Shown here one piece after another: positions 6,417 to 37,124 of a DNA stretch of 37,124 nt. Source of the DNA: Lachnospiraceae bacterium. Lineage in GTDB: Bacteria > Bacillota > Clostridia > Lachnospirales > Lachnospiraceae. Position 1 is the stretch's first letter, and the number at the start of each line of letters is the position of its first letter. The position numbers and the translations under genes are program-made. The stretch lies in assembly GCA_017387565.1 (NCBI GenBank), contig JAFOEY010000009.1:1-37124 (forward strand). The letters are read 5' to 3'. The notes beneath the pieces were generated by a model, which was not told where the DNA came from, made no database searches, and saw only the letters and a list, made by a program, of their open reading frames with translations.

Positions 6417-7247
6417 TCACATTTGTTTCATCATATAATTAATTTCAGATAAAATAACGCCATAAAAGCGGAAAAATACAACTGCCAACAGAATATAAAC
6501 CAACACCGTAACGACGATAGAAGCTTTTCTTATTTTTTCATTTACGATTCCATATAAAGAATTCACCACCCGGATATTAGGTTTGGTATCTACATTTGCC
6601 ATCCTCTCTTTGATTGGTTGCAAATCAACAGTATCAGTAAACTCCAGATCCGAACGCAATTCTTCAAGCTCCTGAAGAATCAACCGGTATTTTCTGATAT
6701 AGTTTTCACACTGACGAGACTCAGCTGAAAGGACTTCGATGTTCCATTTTTCACAAATCCAGATTCCAAGTCTACTTTGTTTATTAATCTGCATAAGTAC
6801 AAAACCACGCATGACTTTATACAGACAAAGTGGCAGTGCATATAATAAAAAGGGCATATCTACAAGAACCATAAGACTTCCTAATAAGCCAAAAGCAAAT
6901 CCGATTTTTGAGAACATCATTCCTCCACTGATTGCAATCAGAATTCCTATTGGAAGTGCCAAAATAATAATCAAAAGTGCCATGCCAAAGGTTTTCACAT
7001 CCTTCTTTTCATCGTCTTCCCTTTTTTTTGCACTCTGATACTGACTCATAACCTGATAAAGAGCAAAATCCAGCTGCTCTTTATACTTCGCAACCAGATA
7101 CTGCCCTTCATTTTCAAATTCATATTTTATTTTCGGTTGTTGGTCCCCCACCGGTTCTGCCGCTATGTCCTTTTGATTTTCCTTGTCAATCTTATCTGTT
7201 TTTTGTTCCATATTTTGCCATTCCATAGCAATATTTCCACCCATCAT
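6417..7247 (-). CDS. Small membrane protein of the efflux operon
   Basis: Unrecognised 276-aa protein. The N-terminal 80 residues are charged and cytoplasmic-looking. Hydrophobic segments lie at about 87-109, 114-142 and 242-262, with a Glu/Arg-rich helical stretch (about 175-205) between the second and third. Its ATG overlaps the stop of the permease gene as ATGA, so translation is coupled; a second possible start is the ATG at codon 8, which has GGTGG 10 nt upstream. Position as fourth gene after ATPase, adaptor and permease recalls YknW of the Bacillus YknWXYZ system, an extra membrane partner, but I see no convincing sequence similarity. It is likely an accessory or assembly factor of this transporter. 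Confidence 0.8.
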   Translation of the reverse strand: MMGGNIAMEWQNMEQKTDKIDKENQKDIAAEPVGDQQPKIKYEFENEGQYLVAKYKEQLDFALYQVMSQYQSAKKREDDEKKDVKTFGMALLIIILALPIGILIAISGGMMFSKIGFAFGLLGSLMVLVDMPFLLYALPLCLYKVMRGFVLMQINKQSRLGIWICEKWNIEVLSAESRQCENYIRKYRLILQELEELRSDLEFTDTVDLQPIKERMANVDTKPNIRVVNSLYGIVNEKIRKASIVVTVLVYILLAVVFFRFYGVILSEINYMMKQM

Positions 7248-10840: not shown

Positions 10841-11299
10841 TTATGACATTCCATTTACTGTTTTGTACTTATAAAGCATTTCCGCATGATTTTGTTCCTC
10901 AACCTGTATATCTGCCAGAAGCTTTCTGACATCACTGTTTGCAAAATTAAAGACATTTGTATTGTATTCTCCGGATACCAGTTTTTCCGTTCCGATGCAG
11001 TCCGTTGCCAAAAAACAATCTTCCTTTTTCTCTGTTCCGTTTGTCAACTGGTCGTACGTTGCCTTCGGTTCGTAGCACTTACCTTCACAGTCATTACAAT
11101 CACAGGAAGGTACCTTTCCGGTAAGCACCTGTCCCAAGGAATCGTGATGTCTCTGTTCTTCATCCGCCAATTTTGAAAAAAGATCTCTCAATACCTCATC
11201 ATGCGCTTCTTTACTGTATCGATTGTATTTATCGATACATGCCTGCTCCTGTGTCTGCAAATCTTTAATTGTTGTAGTTTCTTTTTCTGTTAAGATCAC
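10841..11299 (-). CDS. Ferritin-fold / CotF-like protein with Cys cluster
   Basis: A 152-aa helical protein resembling the CotF spore-coat/ferritin-like family of Clostridia. Candidate diiron ligands are E18, E47-E48 with H51-H52 (LADEEQRHHDSL) and E134-E135 with H138 (IQVEEQNHAEML). Between the two helical halves is a Cys-rich segment: C66, C68, C71 and C75 (CDCNDCEGKC), plus C95 and C101. The cysteines could bind metal or form crosslinks. The start is GTG with GGAGG 9 nt upstream. It is a single-gene unit with its own terminator. A role in the spore coat or in metal/oxygen stress is possible; ligand assignments are by eye. Confidence 0.75.
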   Translation of the reverse strand: MILTEKETTTIKDLQTQEQACIDKYNRYSKEAHDEVLRDLFSKLADEEQRHHDSLGQVLTGKVPSCDCNDCEGKCYEPKATYDQLTNGTEKKEDCFLATDCIGTEKLVSGEYNTNVFNFANSDVRKLLADIQVEEQNHAEMLYKYKTVNGMS

Positions 11300-11786: not shown

Positions 11787-12332
11787 TTAATACTCAATTC
11801 CTTTTCTAGCGGGGATTCCTTTTGAAAACGGATGTTTTTTCATCTTCATTTCCGTAACATAATCTGCCAAATCCAACAATTCTCTTCCCGGATTTCTACC
11901 GGTTATCACTATCTCAAGTGTTTCCGGCTTATTCTTTAAAAATGACAGAACATCCTCTTTATCCAATATTCCCCATGAATACACATAGGTCAACTCATCT
12001 AACACCAACAGTCCCACTTCTTCCGGCGATATCGAAAAAAGACTCTGTCTCATATTTTCAAACAGCTTTCGCTGAGAGATACAAAGTGCCTGCTTTTGCT
12101 CTTCGTTCATATTATGATAAAATCCCTTTGGCATATCACAATCCGAGAAATACAAAACAAGCGGCATTTCCTTTAATACTGCCACTTCCCCGGATTGATC
12201 ATCTTTCAGAAACTGTGCAAATAACACGCGTTTTCCATATCCGGCCACACGCATCGCTAATCCAATCGCAGCCGTAGTCTTCCCTTTTCCATCTCCGTGA
12301 TAAAGATGTATCAAGCCCTTGTCCATTCCCAC
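11787..12332 (-). CDS. cobO: Cob(I)yrinic acid a,c-diamide adenosyltransferase
   Basis: A 181-aa CobA/CobO/BtuR-family enzyme, which transfers the 5'-deoxyadenosyl group of ATP to cob(I)alamin or corrinoid precursors. The P-loop GDGKGKTTAAIG (about 14-25) at the N-terminus is diagnostic of this family. Other motifs are AQFLKD, VLDELTY (Walker B-like, about 109-115) and the C-terminal VITGRNPGRELLDLADYVTEM. Start is GTG, 7 nt after AGAGG, which lies in the last codons of the preceding gene; only 2 nt separate the two, so translation is coupled. An alternative ATG is two codons further in. It is the last gene of the symporter/glycosylase-fusion operon. Confidence 0.93.
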   Translation of the reverse strand: MGMDKGLIHLYHGDGKGKTTAAIGLAMRVAGYGKRVLFAQFLKDDQSGEVAVLKEMPLVLYFSDCDMPKGFYHNMNEEQKQALCISQRKLFENMRQSLFSISPEEVGLLVLDELTYVYSWGILDKEDVLSFLKNKPETLEIVITGRNPGRELLDLADYVTEMKMKKHPFSKGIPARKGIEY

Positions 12333-12334
12333 TC

Positions 12335-13612
12335 TTAATCCTCTTTTTTACTCATAATTCTCTGATAGCCATAGTTTTGATTTCCGTTACCGTTTCCACC
12401 CTGCCTCTTTTGCTCATTCCGGCTTTTTCGCATTTTAATCTTTTGAGACATGACCGGATCTATGAGACACTCTTTTACATCATTCCAATCCATTTCCGTT
12501 TTCTGCCTGTTTGCGCATTGTGTATTATCACACATTTCACAGATATTCATACATCCATTTCCACGGTTCGAATTGTTTTCTTCTTCCAACCTTTTTTCTT
12601 TGCCGTCCGAACATGAATTTTCACGAACCTTTGTTGTAAATACAACCGTCTTTTGCGGAATCATGACAAACGCTTCATTCAACATCACATCTGTTATTCC
12701 AAGCCTTTCAAAAAGTTCAGGTATATCTTTCATTTCTTCCTGATTCAGAAATATCATATCCGATGCTAAAAGCCCGGTATGACAAAGATGTGTTTCATAA
12801 AACGTCTGATACGCCATTCTCAGCATTCCCATTCCAAGACAATCCACCATATATGCCAAAAAAAGTTGTTCTTTTTGCTCATACATTTCCATCTTTTCAT
12901 CAAAAAATCCACCTAATGTCATAACCACAAGCTGTTTCCCCGAAAGAGAAACCTGATACCATACCGTTACATCCTGTCTAACCTGTGATTTTGTACCAAA
13001 CAGCTCTCTCCAGACCCGTGCAAATTCCGCGCTGTCCGTTTCTTCCATGTGTCCATCCTGCATGATATTCAGATAATCCTTATAATCCACATTTACCTGA
13101 TAGTGGTAATGTCCCTGGCAAATCCACAACAAACGTTTCCACGAATCAATCAGTGCAGACAAAGAAAAAGCCGCATTTGCCGGGCTTGAAGACGGCAAAA
13201 CAACGGCTTTTATGTGCAAATCCGGTTCGATATACTTTTTATAATACTTTTCCGCTGTTTTACCGTTTACGTAGATGTATTGAATCCGGGATTTTCGAAT
13301 AATTCCCGATATATCTGCCGTCACAACATTTTTTATACTGCTATCCGATGAGCCTTTGATATCACACTCATATATCACATCCCACAACGCGATGTGATGC
13401 GAAAGAAGCATATCTTTCTTTTGCGTGATATCGCCAGGCTCCTTACAGCCGATAACGGCAGATAAAACCTTCCAGAAACGATTTTGCGGATGTCCGTAGT
13501 AAAATCCGTTTTCACGCGATTTTACGGATGGCAGACTACCCAATATTAAAATCTCCGATTTTTCATCAAAAACAGGCTCAAAGGGCTGTACAACATGTGT
13601 ATATTCTGCCAT
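12335..13612 (-). CDS. DNA glycosylase fused to MetH-activation-like domain
   Basis: A 425-aa two-domain protein. Residues 1-165 match the UDG-superfamily hypoxanthine-DNA (deoxyinosine) glycosylase type: ILGSLPSVKSRENGFYYGHP (about 23-42), NRFW, ALWDVI and the C-terminal LPSSSPANA (139-147). Residues about 195-330 resemble the short clostridial vitamin B12-dependent methionine synthase activation protein: VMTLGGFFD, AYMVDCLGMG, LGITDVMLNEAFVMIPQKTVV, then a Cys tail C354, C358, C361, C366 (NICEMCDNTQCANR). That family usually has an RxxPGY AdoMet-binding motif and ends in a similar Cys tail. Here the RxxPGY region is CHTGLLASD, so AdoMet binding is doubtful. A Lys/Arg/Gly/Asn-rich tail follows. 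The ATG at 13612 has GAGG 7 nt upstream. It lies 13 nt after the symporter gene and 2 nt before the adenosyltransferase. Confidence 0.75.
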   Translation of the reverse strand: MAEYTHVVQPFEPVFDEKSEILILGSLPSVKSRENGFYYGHPQNRFWKVLSAVIGCKEPGDITQKKDMLLSHHIALWDVIYECDIKGSSDSSIKNVVTADISGIIRKSRIQYIYVNGKTAEKYYKKYIEPDLHIKAVVLPSSSPANAAFSLSALIDSWKRLLWICQGHYHYQVNVDYKDYLNIMQDGHMEETDSAEFARVWRELFGTKSQVRQDVTVWYQVSLSGKQLVVMTLGGFFDEKMEMYEQKEQLFLAYMVDCLGMGMLRMAYQTFYETHLCHTGLLASDMIFLNQEEMKDIPELFERLGITDVMLNEAFVMIPQKTVVFTTKVRENSCSDGKEKRLEEENNSNRGNGCMNICEMCDNTQCANRQKTEMDWNDVKECLIDPVMSQKIKMRKSRNEQKRQGGNGNGNQNYGYQRIMSKKED

Positions 13613-13625
13613 CACAAAACCTCAT

Positions 13626-15032
13626 CTAAAATATGTTTAAAATTCCAACGGATCTTAAGAACAAAATAAATAACAAAATGGGGGCAATATATTTCATCAT
13701 TACAATGTATAACTTTTCACGGCTAAATTTTTCACCGTTCTTTTCTGCCTCATCAATAATAAACTGCGGTTTTTTCACCCATCCGATCAGGATACAGGTT
13801 CCAATGGAAATCAAAGGCATGAAAACATTGTTACTGATATAATCCATAATATCTAACACCTGTGCAACCGCGCCATTTGGAAGTGTCACCTCAAAATAGA
13901 GCTTATTATAACCAAGACAAACGATCACAGCAAAGAACAAAGCAATAAAAGTCTCTAACAAAGTGGCTTTTAAACGATTCAGATGGAACTGATCCATGAA
14001 ACTTGATACAACCGCTTCCAAAATCGAGATAGCACTTGTAATCGCCGCAAATAAAACCATGGCAAAAAACAAAGCTCCAACCACATTGCCGACAGCTCCC
14101 ATCTGCGCAAAAACCTTGGGCAGGGAAACAAACATAAGACTCGGTCCGGATGCTTCCATTCCCTCTCTTCCCATAAAAGTAAATACCGCAGGAATAATCA
14201 TAACACCTGCCAAAATAGCCACTCCGGTATCGAAAATTTCAATCTGGTTGATGGATTTTACCAGATTTGCTTCATCCTTTACATAAGAGCCATATGCAAC
14301 CATAATTCCCATGGCAACACTCAGGCTAAAGAATAATTGTCCCATTGCATCCACCATGACCGTAAAGAACTTTCCAAAAGTCAAGCCTGACAGATCAGGA
14401 ATTAAATATATTTTCAAGCCCTGCAAACCGGTCCGAACCGCTCCGTCATCACCGGTATAGCTGATGGTTAAAGAAAAAATAGCGATGCCGATTACTAAAA
14501 CAATCAGGATTGGCATGATAATCTTGGAAGAAGATTCAATTCCTTTATTCACTCCCATGATAATAATACCGGATACCAATGCCAGAAAAATCACCATATA
14601 AACAATGGGTGAAACCTCAGATGTGATAAAACCGGTAAAATATCCATCTTCAGCTGCTTTTAATCCGTCTCCTGTTAAAAAAGCAACAAAATATTTTATT
14701 ACCCAGCCTCCGATCGTACAATAATACGGCATAATAATAGCCGGTATCAGACAACCAAGGATTCCCAGAAATCCAAACCTTTTGTCAACCATACGATATG
14801 CAGTAAGTGGCCCCTGTTTAGTATTACGTCCGATGGCAATATCCGTTGTCAAAAGCGAGAAACCAAAAGTCAGCGCCAAAAAAATATAGACAACTAAAAA
14901 CAGTCCTCCGCCATCTTTTGCCGCTAAATACGGAAACCTCCAGATATTTCCTAAACCTACCGCACTTCCGGCCGCTGCAAGCACAAAACCCAGAGAACCG
15001 GAAAATGCATGTCTTTGTGTTTTTTTCTCCAT
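13626..15032 (-). CDS. Sodium-dependent NSS-family (amino-acid) symporter
   Basis: A 468-aa integral membrane transporter of the neurotransmitter:sodium symporter family, about 11-12 helices as in bacterial Tyt1/MhsT. TM1 carries the unwound Na/substrate motif AAGSAVGLGNIWRFPYLAA, TM2 ends in GGGLFLVVYI, and TM6 has VDAMGQLFFSLSVAMGIMVAYGS. Bacterial members take up amino acids such as tyrosine or tryptophan with Na+. The start is the internal ATG at 15030-15032, because AAGGGAG is 6 nt upstream; an in-frame ATG 27 nt earlier lacks a site. It is followed after 13 nt by the glycosylase fusion and is first in that operon. The substrate cannot be read from sequence. Confidence 0.94.
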   Translation of the reverse strand: MEKKTQRHAFSGSLGFVLAAAGSAVGLGNIWRFPYLAAKDGGGLFLVVYIFLALTFGFSLLTTDIAIGRNTKQGPLTAYRMVDKRFGFLGILGCLIPAIIMPYYCTIGGWVIKYFVAFLTGDGLKAAEDGYFTGFITSEVSPIVYMVIFLALVSGIIIMGVNKGIESSSKIIMPILIVLVIGIAIFSLTISYTGDDGAVRTGLQGLKIYLIPDLSGLTFGKFFTVMVDAMGQLFFSLSVAMGIMVAYGSYVKDEANLVKSINQIEIFDTGVAILAGVMIIPAVFTFMGREGMEASGPSLMFVSLPKVFAQMGAVGNVVGALFFAMVLFAAITSAISILEAVVSSFMDQFHLNRLKATLLETFIALFFAVIVCLGYNKLYFEVTLPNGAVAQVLDIMDYISNNVFMPLISIGTCILIGWVKKPQFIIDEAEKNGEKFSREKLYIVMMKYIAPILLFILFLRSVGILNIF

Positions 15033-15070
15033 AAAAATCTCCCTTAACAAATTAATCATATACGCTATCT

Positions 15071-15478: not shown

Positions 15479-15874
15479 ATGAGTCAGGAAAAAGTTGATC
15501 AATATAAGAAGGAAAAGAAAAACCGTAAGGCCAATATCAAAAAAGCAAAGCGTCGTAAACTGATGTGGAAAATATTTGGTCCCATCTTGGCACTTCTTGT
15601 CATCGCTTTAATCGGTGCCGGTATCTATTTCATTCCCCAGTGGACCAATAACAAGGCACAGGAAGCACAGTCCGATGAAATCGATTATGAACAGTTAATG
15701 GAATTACTTAATCAAAGTAGCGATTCTCAAAGTAGCAATTCCACTGTTGAAACAGAAAATTCCGGCAGTGATTCCGTTGCAGAAGAGGATGAAACCGATA
15801 ATGCATCAGAAACAAATACAGATGCTTCAGAATCTTCCTCAGATAACGGATCTACAACAATTGAAGCAGAATAA
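15479..15874 (+). CDS. Small single-pass membrane protein, acidic Ser-rich tail
   Basis: Unrecognised 131-aa protein, the only convincing plus-strand gene here. Residues 1-30 are strongly basic (Lys/Arg-rich), about 33-52 form one hydrophobic segment (FGPILALLVIALIGAGIYFI), and about 55-131 are acidic and rich in Ser, Asn, Glu, Asp and Thr without cysteines. By the positive-inside rule the tail is extracytoplasmic and probably disordered. AAAGGA lies 10 nt before the ATG. A bidirectional terminator follows at 16009. A cell-envelope role is plausible but not shown. Codon use looks like its neighbours. Confidence 0.8.
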   Translation: MSQEKVDQYKKEKKNRKANIKKAKRRKLMWKIFGPILALLVIALIGAGIYFIPQWTNNKAQEAQSDEIDYEQLMELLNQSSDSQSSNSTVETENSGSDSVAEEDETDNASETNTDASESSSDNGSTTIEAE

Positions 15875-29825: not shown

Positions 29826-29930
29826 TTACGCTCTGGAAAGATATTTTGTTTCCAGTTCATGACTAACGTTGATAAGTTTATCTAAATATTCCGAATGCAG
29901 TTTATTTATGCCCGTACGCACGCGGCGCAT
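29826..29930 (-). CDS. Possible 34-aa small protein in the inverted repeat
   Basis: A short frame encodes MRRVRTGINKLHSEYLDKLI and a further 14 residues ending YLSRA. It is basic at the N-terminus and otherwise amphipathic-helical. AGGA lies 8 nt upstream of the ATG, but the start is inside a stable hairpin. The opposite arm of the inverted repeat encodes a decayed version on the plus strand, with a stop after SEY followed by DKLIN. That could mean the small protein was real and duplicated, or simply follows from the repeat. I cannot name it. Confidence 0.3.
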   Translation of the reverse strand: MRRVRTGINKLHSEYLDKLINVSHELETKYLSRA

Positions 29931-30066
29931 AAAAGACATCCTGTCTTGATGCGCCTTTTGCGACATCCATGTCGCAAAGTGCTGATAGTCTCTCGGAATA
30001 TTAAGATAAACTAATCAACATCGTCCAAATGAACCGTAAACAAAATATCTTTCCGCCGCTCGTAAA
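29826..30066. repeat. Large imperfect inverted repeat between engB and clpX
   Basis: Left arm 29826-29894 and right arm 29993-30066 are reverse complements at most positions, sharing CGGAATATT, AGATAAACT, ATCAAC, ATGAAC and AAACAAAATATCTTTCC in order. The roughly 100-nt centre holds two more stems: GGCGCAT/ATGCGCC with inner AAGACA/TGTCTT (29924-29955), and TTTGCGACAT/ATGTCGCAAA (29957-29978). Beyond the right arm is CGGACAT-GG-ATGTCCG (30068-30083). It could be a MITE-like remnant, a structured RNA or an mRNA-processing element. Confidence 0.75.
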
Positions 30067-36974: not shown

Positions 36975-36987
36975 GGTAGTATTATAT

Positions 36988-37048
36988 GATACCAGGGTCA
37001 AAAGGTCATACTTTTCATGCTCGCATGAAAAAGTATGACTTTGGGACC
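36988..37048. repeat. Repeat fragment with long hairpin
   Basis: GATACCAGGGTCAAAAG (36988-37004) matches the start of copy 1 at 16 of 17 positions. It runs into a stem GTCATACTTTTCATG-CTCG-CATGAAAAAGTATGAC (one bulge), extended outward by imperfect GGGTC / GGGACCC pairing. The last 10 nt of the window (AGTGCGTAGC) match copy 1 again, so the element continues past the edge. Confidence 0.65.
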
Positions 37049-37124
37049 CGCAAAACATGAGAAAGTAGCCCGATTAGGGCGGATTTCGATTGTTTACGGA
37101 TTGCGAGAGCACAAAGTGCGTAGC

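Follow-up and report, generated by a model that had tools for sequence, protein, structure and literature searches.

The reverse-strand frame at 12335-13612 encodes a DNA-deoxyinosine glycosylase (HDG) and, in the same chain, a divergent relative of the methionine synthase (MetH) activation domain. This C-terminal half and its relatives are labelled CD. Judged by sequence, CD and the MetH activation domain are sister families; CD has no AdoMet motif and no name in Pfam or NCBIfam. On balance, the fusion is probably incidental. CD would act without AdoMet as an adaptor, bringing corrinoid enzymes to the ATP-dependent corrinoid reductase RACE so that cob(II) is reduced to cob(I), in the service of MetH and probably of CobO.

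The window is the whole stretch of DNA that was analysed, 37,124 nucleotides of a contig from a Lachnospiraceae bacterium. The fused gene is a single open frame of 425 amino acids from ATG; an in-frame GTG at 13615 is an alternative start. The first-pass annotation had placed the frame at the right coordinates and strand and had correctly seen in it a glycosylase-type and a MetH-activation-like domain. The HDG half spans residues 1-165 from ATG (13118..13612, minus strand). Its residues 11-158 match TIGR04274, DNA-deoxyinosine glycosylase, with 139.9 bits (cut-off 80) over model positions 2-150 of 150. PF03167 (42.1 bits, cut-off 24.3) and the solved protein 2L3F (E 1.1e-19) were also matched. 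The whole-domain match identifies the first half as a predicted ordinary deoxyinosine DNA glycosylase. The CD half, including a Cys tail and a C-terminal tail, occupies 12335..13117 (minus strand). The next downstream gene had been called a cob(I)alamin adenosyltransferase 2 nt away, and PF02572 (192 bits) confirmed it as cobO, encoding ATP:cob(I)alamin adenosyltransferase (11787..12332, minus strand; gap of 2 nt, counting cobO from the GTG at 12332). No cobalamin riboswitch scored above threshold within the window. Other features of the window are a TwoAYGGAY RNA element at 29861-30026 on the minus strand (104.1 bits, gathering 43), a Clostridiales-1 RNA at 36987-37124 on the plus strand (94.5 bits, incomplete at the window's end), a protein downstream of cobO that matches both Coat_F and rubrerythrin models (10841-11299, minus strand) and two open frames with no Pfam match at E 0.001 (6417-7247, minus strand, and 15479-15874, plus strand).

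The fused protein had a match in eight of nine genomes of the genus. The full fusion is present in four (G000, which is the genome of the window, G302, G086 and G299). Four others have CD without HDG (G300, G301, G303 and G304), and a search for a separate HDG gene in these gave no match at E up to 0.01. G305 had no match. The joined frame recurs in four of nine genomes, three of which are also found among named public contigs; it is therefore not a frameshift of the window assembly, and an assembly error as the source of the fusion is ruled out. A split of the homologues into two genes had been proposed as a check. Homologues without HDG were indeed found outside the genus, yet the uninterrupted fusion frame does exist and one clade has conserved it. 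In the tree, the CDs of the four fusions group together (100/98) within the genus clade (100/99), and the fusion is one event in the genus. Where neighbours were compared, the locus is syntenic: an MSQEKVD gene is located near all four fused loci and near both CD-only loci covered, L045 and L047. Directly upstream of the fusion lies a gene of the sodium:neurotransmitter symporter family (13626..15059, minus strand; PF00209, 194 bits), also seen upstream of the fusion in L041, L042 and L043. In L045 and L047, an ABC-type gene takes the place of symporter and HDG. The symporter arrived with HDG at the window locus, with no sign of a shared function.

Between G000 and G299, identity is 77% for HDG and 38% for CD, with dN/dS of 0.11 and 0.37 at a dS of about 1.5, which makes these values rough. 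Within the fused clade, dN/dS ranges from 0.09 to 0.16 for HDG and from 0.22 to 0.38 for CD. Both are well under 1, so HDG and CD alike are under purifying selection. Inspection of the junction DNA by eye gave no convincing internal ribosome site for separate translation of CD.

The other fusions of HDG show how much weight the join can bear. In a survey of 299 genomes of the bacterial family, standing for 298 genera, HDG was found in 185. Most HDG rows among the matches listed lie in open frames of 150-230 amino acids, the length of a lone domain. Ten open frames among the matches listed have at least 280 amino acids, two of them from the window genus. The eight others, from eight further genomes of the family (L159-L166), are in-frame fusions with five other domain kinds: glycosyltransferase family 2, radical SAM and Nudix (two genomes each), a laccase-like Cu-oxidase_4 domain and an acylphosphatase (one each). 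A 255-amino-acid HDG frame in G232 has an upstream extension only and was left out of this count. Seven lone HDG genes (L172-L178) had no CD, cobO or metH match within about 4 kb on each side, where the contig allowed. HDG occurs in 20 of the 26 genomes with CD, where 16 are expected (p 0.14), and this is not beyond chance. Homologue searches, a pattern search of public contigs and the HDG matches listed yielded no HDG-CD fusion outside the window genus. Corrinoid neighbours (cobO, metF-metH, RACE) accompany CD in genomes without HDG beside it. Among unannotated gut 'Bacteriophage sp.' records, six contain an HDG-like stretch and one a CD-like stretch (phage hits H1-H7); these may be bacterial DNA.

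Because HDG is fused to five other domain kinds and co-occurs with CD no more often than by chance, a special link between base repair and corrinoid chemistry, as raised in the first-pass annotation, is not supported. Neither the other HDG fusions nor the neighbours of HDG provide such a link, and the corrinoid neighbours follow CD. The annotation had also considered a co-expression accident. This idea fared better: given the varied partners of HDG, the join looks incidental. The HDG-CD fusion is stable, conserved in one clade and most likely of no functional consequence; the join to HDG would be neutral. It is of little weight in itself, and cautions that a fusion alone does not prove a functional link.

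The identity of CD emerged from profile comparisons. No family of Pfam or NCBIfam was matched above its cut-off. A single-sequence search found the solved structure 1J6R, deposited as 'METHIONINE SYNTHASE', with E 0.0012. A profile of 31 CD rows improved this match to E 3.4e-9, and the next match was at 0.77. An alignment of the CD profile with five canonical clostridial activation proteins by hhalign had a probability of 98.8 and E 8.4e-17, and it extended through the Cys tail. These matches identify CD, by sequence, as a homologue of the MetH activation domain. The other check proposed in the first-pass annotation, a structural match to the MetH activation fold, is covered by them at the level of sequence. 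PF02965, the Pfam model of this domain, did not match the window protein at E up to 10 (gathering 25 bits). None of the 31 CD members reached its cut-off; two gave weak matches at E up to 1, the best at E 0.0052. Weak matches to RFX and CodY were taken as chance.

CD retains the TLG..D, AY..DCL, PQKTVVF and Cys-tail blocks, as the first-pass annotation had described in similar terms (TLG...AY..D..G, MxPxK, Cys tail). The TLGGFFD motif is located at 12899..12919 (minus strand); L68 and D73 are invariant and G69 is conserved in at least 90% of the 31 rows. In PQKTVVF (12638..12658, minus strand; P.KS.. in canonical activators), the proline is invariant and the lysine is conserved in at least 90%. 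The Cys tail C-x3-C-x2-C-x4-C..R (12506..12553, minus strand) has two invariant cysteines and one conserved in at least 90%. It is a possible metal or Fe-S site and is also present in canonical activators. The protein ends with a YGYQRI tail (12356..12373, minus strand). Such a tail was found by a loose pattern in 18 of the 31 CD rows, and in 24 of 24 rows of the alignment from the public-contig search, a figure that is partly circular because the search used that pattern.

The loss of the AdoMet motif had also been noticed. At the place of the canonical R[FY]SPGYG, the profile alignments put GLLASDMIFLNQEEMKD (12725..12775, minus strand). RxSPGY is present in five of five canonical rows and in none of the 31 CD rows, so its loss is a trait of the family and not peculiar to the HDG fusion. 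R[FY]SPGYG was found in all 20 canonical loci fetched, each of which adjoins a MetH gene or gene piece and none a cobO match. These were the first 20 PF02965 places after omission of G045, an E. coli-like full-length match, so the sample leans to the best matches. The motif is absent from 15 of 15 RACE-fused relatives (14 genomes), in which R.EAP is common. Two genomes with class A MetH, the MetH type defined below, and no RACE match encode an activation protein with a partial motif, GIGYGDLP (L204 in G127 and L206 in G173). The R[FY]SPGYG loop is taken by us to align with the loop around Pro1173 of human methionine synthase. In the available text on that enzyme, Pro1173 is flanked by Arg1172 and Ala1174, which are predicted AdoMet contacts, and the P1173L variant raises the KM for AdoMet about 40-fold (PMC12272874).

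Across the 299 genomes, the CD profile had a match in 142, of which 26 were strong and are counted as CD type (E up to 1.9e-38). Weaker matches followed from 1.4e-22 on, many at the same places as PF02965 matches; the limit was chosen after this gap was seen. PF02965 had a match in 113 genomes, 96 over the cut-off. In a phylogenetic tree of 73 rows, CD formed one clade (100/98) that also included G156, a long-branched non-CD row. RACE-fused domains and three lone relatives formed a second clade (100/98). The 21 canonical rows grouped together with G127 and G173 (100/95), and the canonical rows alone only with 88/21. The bootstrap of this tree was not settled and its root is not known. CD members keep invariant or near-invariant residues despite only about 20-40% identity. 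In the part of the literature covered, no description of an activation domain without the AdoMet motif, or of its fusion to RACE, was found.

The genomic neighbourhood connects CD with corrinoid metabolism. In 10 of the 26 CD genomes, cobO is fused to CD or next to it (in G251 upstream and interrupted by a stop). CD-CobO fusions are encoded by G207, by G363 of the same genus and by G147. metF-metH lies beside CD in four genomes (G025, G082, G183 and, with one gene between, G151). Neither cobO nor metF-metH was found by CD in 12 of the 26. Among genomes with a long type of CobO, cobO adjoins CD in 10 of 15 and a canonical activator in 0 of 15 (of 20 examined; p 2e-4). The long type is absent from 11 of the 26 CD genomes. 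In the window genus, cobO follows seven of the eight CD genes; the only CobO of G299 is of the short type and encoded elsewhere. The 23 loci taken from named public genomes include 11 with cobO downstream and three with HDG fused, and seven of the 23 appear identical to genus genomes already counted. CobO has further fusion partners: in G003 (L247:879-2078) presumably an ATP-pyrophosphatase-like domain and in G183 (L248:785-2797) what we take to be a CobQ-like protein.

Outside the family, CD or a CD-like domain is fused to RACE. Three genomes of two other families encode such proteins. In G308, CD (profile E 7e-47) directly precedes the RACE core without a 2Fe-2S match. In G338 and G325, which belong to one genus, a CD-like domain (E about 3e-29 and 7e-29), a 2Fe-2S domain and RACE form one chain. 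The Pfam run covered G308 and G338. None of the three fusions has RxSPGY, and in all three metF and metH are the next genes. Activation-like domains ahead of 2Fe-2S and RACE were also seen in frames of about 720-870 amino acids (L170, L171, L189-L200 and L207); none of these has R[FY]SPGYG, and several adjoin a match that resembles MetH or a corrinoid protein. In G214 (C45), G038 (C12) and G064 (C72), a cobO gene lies about 3-5 kb from a RACE gene, which also hints at a link between RACE and CobO. The fusions to RACE and CobO point to candidate partner proteins of CD. The first-pass suggestion of a corrinoid- or metal-binding module is supported as far as another kind of corrinoid module is concerned.

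The distribution of RACE (PF14574) was compared with that of CD and PF02965. All 26 CD genomes have RACE versus 175 of 299 overall (p 7e-7), none has PF02965 (p 2.5e-6), and RACE is found in 23 of 113 PF02965 genomes versus 152 of 186 others (p 2e-26); these p values are overstated because the genomes are related and the tests treat them as independent. RACE is present in all nine genomes of the window genus, where no RACE gene adjoins CD. G000 has one RACE gene with a 2Fe-2S domain, separate from and distant to CD. CD is the only activation-type match of this genome. Its MetH has homocysteine, pterin, cap and B12 domains and no PF02965 activation domain. A MetH type, class A, was defined by a best match to the MetH of G025 better than about 1e-195 and comprises 100 genomes with 51-100% identity. 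RACE is present in 93 of them and PF02965 in two. Class A MetH is found in 25 of the 26 CD genomes; the exception, G147, has the CD-CobO fusion and RACE and no MetH match at 1e-20. Within class A, RACE occurs in 25 of 25 genomes with CD and in 68 of 75 without (p 0.19); tested in this way, an excess of RACE tied to CD at a given MetH type is not significant. Of 58 class A genomes without any activation-domain match, 55 have RACE. As RACE is equally common without CD inside class A, its presence tracks the MetH type and does not depend on CD. CD is an accessory retained by some lineages.

The usual account of MetH reactivation has AdoMet and an electron donor working on one activation domain. 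For CD, a different course is proposed. MetH in the genome of the window has no activation domain of its own. Once its cobalamin has lapsed into the inactive cob(II) state, CD would probably dock onto the B12 domain of MetH in the reactivation pose. RACE would supply the electron, driven by ATP, and the cob(I) formed would be re-methylated by methyl-tetrahydrofolate instead of AdoMet. CD and RACE probably also supply cob(I)alamin to CobO, encoded next door. CobO requires cob(I)alamin, which would explain why cobO is beside or fused to CD. Precedents exist for parts of this course. A full-length methionine synthase structure has the activation domain above the B12 domain (available text of PMC10567725). 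In the accessible part of the work of Price and colleagues (PMC5764234), reactivation of B12 for the MetH of bacteria that have no PF02965, for example Phaeobacter and Desulfovibrio, was attributed by inference to DUF4445 (RamA-like) proteins. RamQ of E. limosum together with ATP reduces the corrinoid protein MtqC, according to the text available in PMC8604678. A tentative extension would make CD a general loading dock for cob(I)alamin, with one RACE serving both MetH and CobO and the Cys tail as electron relay. The context of the relay idea is the G308 protein, in which CD precedes the RACE core with no 2Fe-2S domain between.

Several observations count against the adaptor reading: the equal frequency of RACE without CD in class A (p 0.19), the 23 of 113 PF02965 genomes that also carry RACE, the 12 of 26 CD genes without cobO or metF-metH beside them, the lack of a MetH match in G147, the Cys tail shared with canonical activators and the lack of a RACE gene next to CD in the window genus. 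A rival reading has CD work chiefly with CobO, for which it would reduce cob(II)alamin or hand it over for adenosylation, with MetH not a client. This is unlikely. The fusions in G207, G363 and G147, the last without a MetH match, and the neighbourhood of cobO in 10 of 26 genomes (where the long CobO type is present, 10 of 15, compared with 0 of 15 in the case of canonical activators) speak for it; however, CD lies by metF-metH in four of 26, the CD-RACE fusions of G308, G338 and G325 precede metF-metH, 11 of 26 CD genomes have no long CobO type, and G299 retains CD without it. Classical reductive methylation, with AdoMet held by other residues and electrons from flavodoxin or ferredoxin, is quite improbable. 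The lost loop carries predicted AdoMet contacts in human methionine synthase (available text of PMC12272874), RACE accompanies CD in 26 of 26 genomes and the motif is equally missing from 15 of 15 RACE-fused relatives, although the fold is the same by sequence and CD sits at the activator's place by metF-metH in G025, G082 and G183 and one gene off in G151.

CD as a decaying leftover of an activation domain, kept as neighbour or tail with no present activity, is very unlikely. Such a leftover would be consistent with RACE alone in 55 of 58 class A genomes without an activation-domain match and with the faster evolution of CD than of HDG (dN/dS about 0.35 versus 0.1). Yet this dN/dS is still well under 1, residues remain invariant or nearly so at about 20-40% identity, and links to cobO, metF-metH or RACE recur across many genera, with three genomes from two further families among the cases. 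A functional HDG-CD fusion, coupling removal of deaminated adenine to the corrinoid state or to AdoCbl supply, is scarcely credible. HDG joins five other unrelated domain kinds among the matches listed, co-occurs with CD only as expected by chance and is fused to it in the window genus alone in the searches made and the HDG matches listed. The single origin in the genus (100/98) and the preservation of frame and both halves from G000 to G299 (77% and 38% identity) favour coupling, but selection that acts on the two halves separately is no evidence of a role for their join.

Should the AdoMet-free form act together with RACE, B12 would be restarted in many gut bacteria of the family along an ATP-driven route that includes an adaptor, and methionine synthesis and AdoCbl formation would be tied to one cob(I)alamin source. 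If the loading-dock idea is true, one bacterial family would have three routes of MetH reactivation: through the AdoMet domain, through RACE by itself, and through RACE assisted by a dock that needs no AdoMet.

Four known systems invite comparison. The HDG of the window shares the whole domain and the sequence blocks of the lone enzymes of TIGR04274 (family 6 of the UDG superfamily) and differs from them in bearing CD as a C-terminal extension. CobO (BtuR, CobA; PF02572) is a separate enzyme, the next gene in the window and located behind CD in the fusions of G207, G363 and G147; to our knowledge, CD does not belong to its known domain set. PF02965 activators, in the stand-alone clostridial form and 1J6R, are like CD in profile homology and in the TLG..D, P.KS and Cys-tail blocks, and CD likewise lies beside metF-metH in some genomes. 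Unlike them, CD has no R[FY]SPGYG, stays below the Pfam cut-off, never shares a genome with PF02965 (0 of 26) and frequently adjoins cobO or is fused with it, or with RACE in its relatives. The ATP-dependent reductive activators of the RACE, RACo and RamA type (PF14574; DUF4445 in the available text of PMC5764234) occur in all 26 CD genomes; in G308, G338 and G325 they form one protein with CD or a CD-like domain. CD itself has no ASKHA or 2Fe-2S domain, whereas its proposed job, cob(II) to cob(I), would be like theirs.
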